In this document: in pieces, positions 23,501 to 52,400 of the stretch
Numbering within the stretch: position 1 is the first letter of the stretch
Layout: every line of letters begins with the position of its first letter
Source: an uncultured Poribacteria bacterium
GTDB taxonomy: Bacteria > Poribacteria > WGA-4E > WGA-3G
Direction of reading: 5' to 3'
NCBI GenBank assembly: GCA_951828515.1
Contig: OX639992.1
Location: forward strand, 4,070,217 to 4,134,216
DNA: 64,000 nt
Made by a program: the position numbers and the translations under genes
Notes under the pieces: generated by a model
What the model was told of the DNA's origin: nothing
Seen by the model: only the letters and a program-made list of their open reading frames with translations
Databases searched by the model: none

Positions 23501-23589
23501 GTTTGCTTGTGTAGGCGGGGTGTTTTGCTTGGGCGTTTCTCTCGCCCCTATCTGCGGCTTGCTGTTCTAACGGTTTAATTTTACTTTTA

Positions 23590-23679
23590 TAGTAAAGCCA
23601 GAAAATATCTGCACACCGCCGGTAGGTGCGGTTTCTAACCGCACCGAGTTTGGTGTAAAATTAATTACAGAATCCACTA
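23590..23679 (+). mobile_element. TA-flanked MITE (TAGTAAAGCC family), copy upstream of A3
   Basis: Ninety bp, TAGTAAAGCCAGAAAATATC at one end and GAATCCACTA at the other, TA on both sides (23588-23589, 23680-23681). Core hairpin GGTGCGG-TTTCTAA-CCGCACC. It ends 33 bp before the A3 start, at the same site as copy 1 before A1. Confidence 0.8.
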
Positions 23680-23712
23680 TAAGTAAGTCTTCCTCAATAA
23701 GGAGTTAAAACA

Positions 23713-36502: not shown

Positions 36503-36662
36503 TCGTTTTTTACGGACCCTTGGGCTGCTTTCCATTTTGTTACGAGCAAGTTTCTGGTTAAGTCGACTGAAGTAATACCATTTCTGAATAAACGCTCCTC
36601 ATTAACGAAAACCCGGTTTGTAGTAGCGCAATTCATTGCGCTCTTGCGTGCGGAAACTTTTA

Positions 36663-36752
36663 TAGTGGATCCTGCAATTACTTTTACACCAAACTCGGTG
36701 CGGTTAGAAACCGCACCTACCGGGGGTGTGCAGATATTTTCGGGCTTTACTA
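36663..36752 (-). mobile_element. TA-flanked MITE, 90-bp copy
   Basis: TAGTGGATCCTGC ... CGGGCTTTACTA with TA on both sides and the hairpin GGTGCGG-TTAGAAA-CCGCACC. Identical in layout to the copy at 51410-51499, and the reverse of 23590-23679. Confidence 0.85.
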
Positions 36753-36830
36753 TAATGCGTTTCAAAACCACTGAAATGCGAATTTATTTTTCAGATTTGG
36801 TATAAGATATGTGCGGCATAGCATCAAAAC

Positions 36831-51069: not shown

Positions 51070-51402
51070 ATGCCGACTGAAGCGGAACTTTACGACACCG
51101 CACTCACCCATTTTGCTGAAAACGACCTCGAAGCGGCTGTTAATGTTTTTAAAGAATTGATTGAAACTTACCCAGATTACATCGAAGGGTTCCTTGGGCT
51201 CGGACACGCCTATGAACGGATGAGTCTATACGATGAAGCCATTGAAGCGATCCAGAAGGCGATAGAAATTAACCCGAAGGATCCACTTGTATACACCAGT
51301 TTGTCTATGTGTTACCAACGAAAAGGGATGATCCAAGAAGCAGAAGATGCGATGGCAAAGTCGCAACAATTGCAGATAGAAGCATCCCGTTCATCTACAT
51401 GA
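51070..51402 (+). CDS. small TPR-repeat protein
   Basis: A 110-residue protein made of about three tetratricopeptide units: DLEAAVNVFKELIETYPDYI, then FLGLGHAYERMSLYDEAIEA, then VYTSLSMCYQRKGMIQEAED. TPRs mediate protein contacts. A CAAAGGA ribosome site lies upstream. It is cut off from the following gene by a MITE that begins 8 bp after its stop. Confidence 0.8.
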   Translation: MPTEAELYDTALTHFAENDLEAAVNVFKELIETYPDYIEGFLGLGHAYERMSLYDEAIEAIQKAIEINPKDPLVYTSLSMCYQRKGMIQEAEDAMAKSQQLQIEASRSST

Positions 51403-51409
51403 TATCTTA

Positions 51410-51499
51410 TAGTGGATCCTGCAATTACTTTTACACCAAACTCGGTGCGGTTAGAAACCGCACCTACCGGGGGTGTGCAGATATTTTCGGGCTTTACTA
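51410..51499 (-). mobile_element. TA-flanked MITE, 90-bp copy between TPR and selenoprotein genes
   Basis: TAGTGGATCCTGC ... CGGGCTTTACTA with TA flanks (51408-51409, 51500-51501). It is practically identical to 36663-36752, which implies recent movement. On the plus strand it is open and extends the next gene's frame upstream, but the extension is not protein-like. Confidence 0.85.
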
Positions 51500-51555
51500 T
51501 AAAGGATTGGCGAGATTCCAAACCTCGCCAGCAAGAGAATACTGAGGTTTTCATA

Positions 51556-52092
51556 ATGCCAAATACGACTTTACTCGATCCTACCTCTCAAGGCGATGCC
51601 TCTGCGAAATTTCTCTCGCCACGGCTTGATAGCTTTGATGGAAAAGTGATGGGCTTGTTGAATATCACGAAAAACGGTAGTGATATTTTCCTTGACCGCA
51701 TTGCTGAATTAATGAAGGAACGATTTGATCTTGCCGAAGTAATTCACGTTAAAAAACCGACGTTCACGCGTCCCGCGCCGACGGAACTGCTCGTCGAACT
51801 GGCGGAGCAAGTAGATTTCGTTATTGAAGGGCTTGCCGACTGAGGGTCCTGTATATCGTGCAGTATGCACGATGGAAGTGCTTTAGAGGAACGCGGGGTG
51901 CCAAGTGTCGCTGTTTGTACGGAAGTTTTCTTCGCTGCTGGCAAAGTGCAGGCACGTGTACTCGGTCATAGCGAATTGGAACCGCTCACCGTTCCGCATC
52001 CTATCCAGAGCCTGACACCAGATCAGATTCGGAAGAGGGCAGAGGGGGCTGTTGAAGAGATCGTTGCCCGGTTGACAAATGACGGTGAATAA
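51556..52092 (+). CDS. UGSC-family selenoprotein (in-frame TGA read as selenocysteine)
   Basis: Read through TGA at 51841 the protein has 178 residues: MPNTTLLDPTSQGDASAKFL at the start, IGLL-like MGLLNITKNGSDIFLDRIAE, the conserved KPTFTRPAPTELLVELAEQ, then VIEGLAD-U-GSCISCSMHDG, and VPSVAVCTEVFF. The U-GSC motif defines the UGSC (seleno)protein family, in which Cys homologues have CGSC. Both halves lie in one frame, and a hairpin with a perfect 7-bp stem follows the TGA. Conventional gene callers would report a truncated 95-residue protein and a second fragment starting at 51865. Function is unknown; the family is assumed to be redox-active. No sel genes are in the window, so the machinery must be elsewhere. 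Confidence 0.85.
51841..51874 (+). promoter_or_regulatory. SECIS-like element at the UGSC TGA
   Basis: TGA (51841-51843), then after 11 nt a hairpin ATCGTGC-AGTAT-GCACGAT (51855-51873) with one more wobble pair. Bacterial SECIS elements lie just 3' of the UGA inside the coding region with a small apical loop; the position fits, and the loop has one G. Confidence 0.65.
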
Positions 52093-52179
52093 AGAGAATA
52101 GTTATCAGTTATCAGTCACAAGAGACTTTTGTTGAACGAAAACCTCTTAACTGATAACTGACAACTCCCTAACGACGTT

Positions 52180-52400
52180 TCACATTTTAAACCGCAATGC
52201 CATCGATTCTCCCGGTGGCAGATCACGCCATCGTCCCAACAATGCGCGCAATTTCTTTCGCAGCACTCCCAGTTGTTCGTCTGTAACGCCTACTGGTAGG
52301 GACACACTATGGTCCCGAAACGGATAACCATTCTTAATTATTCCTTGCAGGTAAACGACATGGTTTTGAACTTTTAGGGTATTGATATCGAGTTGGCTTC
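52180..52400 (-). pseudogene. 3' fragment of an unrecognised gene
   Basis: The minus strand is open and protein-like over about 70 codons without a usual start codon: VQNHVVYLQGIIKNGYPFRD, then DEQLGVLRKKLRALLGRWRD, then LPPGESMALRFKM and stop. I do not recognise it. It lies between the selenoprotein gene and a LamG gene. The remainder of 52093-52180 is a run of ATCAGTTATCAGTCA-type short repeats. Confidence 0.3.

Follow-up and report, generated by a model that had tools for sequence, protein, structure and literature searches.

A predicted UGSC-family selenoprotein in a Poribacterial genome and a candidate partner protein

Introduction

The UGSC selenoproteins, a family of unknown function, have been described as abundant in aquatic samples; the GOS data contain 255 of them, which puts the family among the more abundant aquatic selenoproteins (PMC2398784). 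A Trx-like fold was suggested for it in 2008, and Fig. S1A of the same paper reports a UGSC/Unknown_1 fusion (PMC2398784). A 2026 review lists the model NF041046 for the family; it also sets out the bacterial SECIS model, in which the apical loop has 3-9 nt, the upper stem has 4-16 bp, a G falls in the first two loop positions, the distance from UGA to loop is 16-37 nt, and the MFE is -7.5 or lower (PMC13188914).

The gene considered here lies in a window of 64,000 nucleotides, the whole stretch of DNA that was analysed, from an uncultured member of the Poribacteria. It is an ordinary member of this already known selenoprotein family and not a new kind. What is added beyond the known family is a conserved partner gene, a set of associations with CxxC domains and thioredoxin genes, and a flavodoxin-like structural model.

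The gene and its surroundings

Poribacteria are sponge symbionts, and the genome that carries the gene is a single contig of 5.85 Mb. The frame begins at the ATG at 51556 and stays open to the TAA ending at 52092, save for one TGA; joined across that codon it reads ...EGLAD-U-GSCISCSMHDG... (Table 1). The sequence-only reading had spliced two fragments of one frame into GLAD-U-GSCISCS and assigned the product to UGSC; its coordinates are exact, and its warning that gene callers would split the gene is borne out by the mechanical ORF list, which offers 51412-51843 and 51865-52092 instead. The joined 178-aa product lies above the curated cut-offs of both family models, with 168.6 bits against PF24696 (cut-off 25; residues 6-174, 1.8e-49) and 159.7 bits against NF041046 (NCBIfam UGSC_fam; cut-off 125). 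Its motif is U96-G97-S98-C99, and across 37 aligned UGSC rows, with U read as C at site 96, all four positions are invariant. Searching PDB sequences with the family profile gave no meaningful match.

Table 1. Features of the UGSC locus (window coordinates)
Feature	Position	Strand	Description	Support
Predicted UGSC-family selenoprotein gene	51556..52092	+	178 aa, Sec = residue 96, TAA stop 52090-52092	PF24696, NF041046, 61 co-linear copies in Poribacteria, this one counted
In-frame TGA, putatively read as selenocysteine (U of UGSC)	51841..51843	+		TGA invariance; Cys at the site in other homologues
Bacterial SECIS-type hairpin	51855..51873	+	stem of 7 bp; AGUAU loop lying 18 nt past the TGA	conservation, synonymous-diversity minimum
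MITE-like repeat	51408..51501	+	94 bp with ends TATAGT...ACTATA; lies upstream of the UGSC gene and outside it	

The repeat immediately upstream had been called a fresh MITE, and the comparison bears this out: the genome holds four identical copies and several more full-length ones at 95% or above, and the matching site in a relative (L068) is empty of the element. Within the window it also occurs at 36660-36755 and 23586-23683, two of the window's copies being identical. Just past the UGSC stop is an imperfect inverted repeat of about 67 nt (52100-52166; GTTATCAGTTATCAG...CTGATAACTGACAAC), single in the window, which is possibly a terminator or a small mobile repeat.

Proposed decoding of the TGA

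UGSC was found in 63 of 85 genomes of the phylum, and each match that spans the site has exactly one TGA; two partial matches in this survey fall short of it. Counting the window's own, 61 Poribacterial copies were recovered, and all carry the TGA (60/60 relatives). Codon differences from the window copy pile up at third positions on both sides of the codon (738, 398 and 2328 at first, second and third positions before it; 490, 245 and 2155 after it), which indicates selection at the protein level on both halves. Scanning genome contigs yielded 80 UGSC loci, and TGA is present in 28/28 of those outside Poribacteria, drawn from Rokubacteria, Binatota, Acidobacteria, Entotheonella, Actinomycetospora, Chloroflexi and Proteobacteria. 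Copies on Paracoccus and Acidovorax plasmids also retain it, with selB near the Paracoccus copy. Cys stands at the site in the haloarchaea Natrinema, Halorientalis and Halalkalicoccus, in Arthrobacter, Roseovarius and Embleya, and in a Variovorax fusion; homologues thus run through the codon, as TGA or as Cys. The Arthrobacter protein (L172:5989-6804) has a C-terminal NifU-like domain at 27.2 bits, against a cut-off of 27.

The hairpin proposed downstream has exactly the stem and loop first read from the letters: arms ATCGTGC (51855-51861) and GCACGAT (51867-51873), loop AGTAT (51862-51866), beginning 11 nt past the TGA. The segment 51844-51882 folds at -14.4 kcal/mol (z -2.59; 3/200 shuffles as good), the MFE structure having 9 bp and a 3-nt loop where the sequence gives 7 bp and a 5-nt loop. 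The four criteria stated for the bacterial SECIS consensus (PMC13188914) are all shared, with no difference in this copy, and the loop AGUAU fits the favoured N-G-U-N-N form. Among 60 Poribacterial genes, mean synonymous diversity is 0.477 at conserved residues versus 0.044 at codons +4 to +9; these codons are the hairpin and form the lowest stretch of the gene, with 0/100,000 random draws as low. In 89/89 sequences the five inner pairs form and the loop keeps its G; outside Poribacteria the outer pairs are often unformed. Direct covariation support is thin, with a single case of double compensation and five replacements of G-C by G-U, because the hairpin codons are nearly invariant. An Rfam scan of 51400-52400 returned only sub-threshold miRNA/snoRNA chance matches.

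The reading had been made to depend on a genome equipped for selenocysteine, and the equipment is present in full: SelA (518 bits), SelB (347.5 bits; 5686787-5688682), tRNA-Sec (78.1 bits; 5688865-5688954, about 180 nt downstream of selB) and SelD (359 bits), and the selD gene has a TGA of its own, in frame and close to the start (KCAG-U-ASKL; L020:1531-1533).

Another gene of this genome also holds an in-frame TGA. It encodes a PrdB-like protein (L204:4722-5474, minus strand; G000:C1 near 725,700-726,500), in which the TGA follows FLTPV and the frame stays open through CNQS. The protein scores 160.5 bits against TIGR04483, below the cut-off of 300, and is kept in most Poribacteria searched; judged from sequence, it is likely a second selenoprotein alongside UGSC.

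Two other accounts of the TGA can be weighed against this background. Were it a true stop, the locus would be a decayed pseudogene, or two ORFs with reinitiation at the ATG at 51865; ORF calling does break there and that ATG lies 21 nt downstream, but the relatives keep frame, length and TGA, third-position and synonymous changes predominate on both sides, Cys homologues continue past the site and the Sec machinery is complete, so that we give this account almost no weight. Decoding by a suppressor tRNA or a reassigned code (Trp or Gly, for example) is just as improbable: no supporting point was found for it, and it sits badly with a dedicated tRNA-Sec and SelB, with Cys at the site in other homologues and with a conserved SECIS-type hairpin. 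The locus therefore almost certainly encodes, as far as comparative sequence can tell, a genuine UGSC-family selenoprotein. By homology, the hairpin would recruit SelB carrying Sec-tRNA-Sec, and because of this the ribosome would read the UGA as selenocysteine.

A candidate partner protein

In annotated Cys-type loci UGSC adjoins a gene for a hypothetical protein of roughly 330-370 aa; the two genes are neighbours in haloarchaea, Roseovarius, Arthrobacter and Paracoccus. This partner, called 'TDGLP' here (about 340 aa), matched no Pfam or NCBIfam family. In 26/28 distant Sec-type loci a profile search found the partner gene immediately 5' of UGSC and in the same orientation; among the few ORFs scanned there, no other neighbour recurred. 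The two are fused in Variovorax (L177), and conservation of the pair extends from Poribacteria, Rokubacteria and Binatota to haloarchaea, where UGSC has the Cys form. Within the Poribacteria phylum the genes are side by side in three more distant genomes (G024, G026 and G005); in most genomes of the phylum they lie apart, and the copy in the window's own genome (G000:C1:234784-235593) is about 2 Mb or more from UGSC. Directly upstream of that copy is a tandem repeat array with repetitive ORFs on both strands (L198:8541-8948).

Presence of UGSC and partner agrees in 80/83 genomes (60 with both, 20 with neither, 1 and 2 discordant; Fisher 6e-16, uncorrected for kinship, the genomes being related and the test therefore non-independent). 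In one discordant genome, G031, UGSC is present but no partner was detected. Six genomes (G032, G034, G035, G039, G043 and G046) have neither gene yet carry the PrdB-like one; joint absence is therefore not a by-product of Sec loss.

Eight partners have an N-terminal CxxC domain that is thioredoxin-like (best Thioredoxin_2 match 26.4 bits, just under the Pfam cut-off of 27), and trxB or trxA stands alongside Cys-type UGSC in Arthrobacter and Roseovarius. The gene travelling with UGSC probably encodes its partner in a redox reaction. The partner model has a mean pLDDT of 77, and a structure search with it gave no match at E<=0.001; the best, a fumarate hydratase at E 0.019 and TM 0.20, is not believed.

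Predicted fold and proposed mechanism

The AlphaFold2 model of the UGSC protein (mean pLDDT 90.5) has five alternating strand-helix units and puts Sec in the stretch linking strand 88-94 to helix 97-112; it predicts a flavodoxin-like alternating alpha/beta fold. The best natural matches by VIA-align have flavodoxin-like or similar alpha/beta folds: CheY-like receivers, PurE, lumazine synthase and AerR, at Z ~9-10, a level that can reflect merely a common arrangement. In the model, Sec96 follows the third strand and sits at a helix N-terminus with Cys99 and Cys102 (UxxCxxC), where it would probably form a selenenylsulfide. Gene order, fusion and co-occurrence suggest that UGSC most likely works with the 'TDGLP' partner in a two-protein enzyme, supplying its catalytic redox component, and that electrons may come from thioredoxin and thioredoxin reductase. 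The catabolic and transport genes beside Cys versions hint that a small organic acid might be reductively processed.

We lean, by a modest degree, towards a thioredoxin-driven selenoenzyme of two components, of a type not described before, in which a Sec subunit of flavodoxin fold pairs with the 'TDGLP' partner. It is less probable, at perhaps a minority share worth keeping in mind, that UGSC is a general oxidoreductase of peroxide or disulfide type working by itself, the link to the partner being no more than shared operon history: this would suit the mostly unlinked Poribacterial copies and the partnerless G031, but it leaves unaccounted for the fusion, the near-universal adjacency in several phyla and the joint absence from Poribacterial genomes that retain another selenoprotein. 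Descent from the GrdB/PrdB selenoprotein domain of glycine and D-proline reductase, with UGSC as a divergent homologue, is more doubtful again. By eye the order of strand, U, xxC, helix and 'GI-T' strand is similar, and the redox context is linked; against this, hhalign of the family alignments gives a probability of 0.8 of 100 (E 0.069), and no Pfam GRDB (PF07355) match occurs among 37 UGSC members (0/37). On those results homology to GrdB/PrdB was rejected.

Comparison with known systems

UGSC proteins are abundant in aquatic data yet without known function, and automatic annotation would split the gene in this window. The conserved partner, the CxxC-domain fusions and the nearby thioredoxin genes make that function testable; of the results given here, the relation between UGSC and its partner might be the part for specialist follow-up.

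Among described systems, D-proline reductase (PrdB/GrdB) resembles UGSC in its UxxC active site and as a reductase in a catabolic setting; it differs in that neither hhalign nor PF07355 detects sequence homology. The Variovorax protein is like the UGSC/Unknown_1 fusion of Fig. S1A (PMC2398784), both joining UGSC to a conserved domain whose function is unassigned, a likeness by description only. The Trx-like fold suggested in 2008 (PMC2398784) differs from the flavodoxin-like model obtained here, whose predicted strand-helix order would argue against it. With the family itself (PF24696/NF041046; PMC2398784) the window protein shares a full-length match, the UGSC motif, and Sec with rare Cys homologues; nothing marks it off from that family, and like most Poribacterial copies its gene is unlinked from that of the partner.
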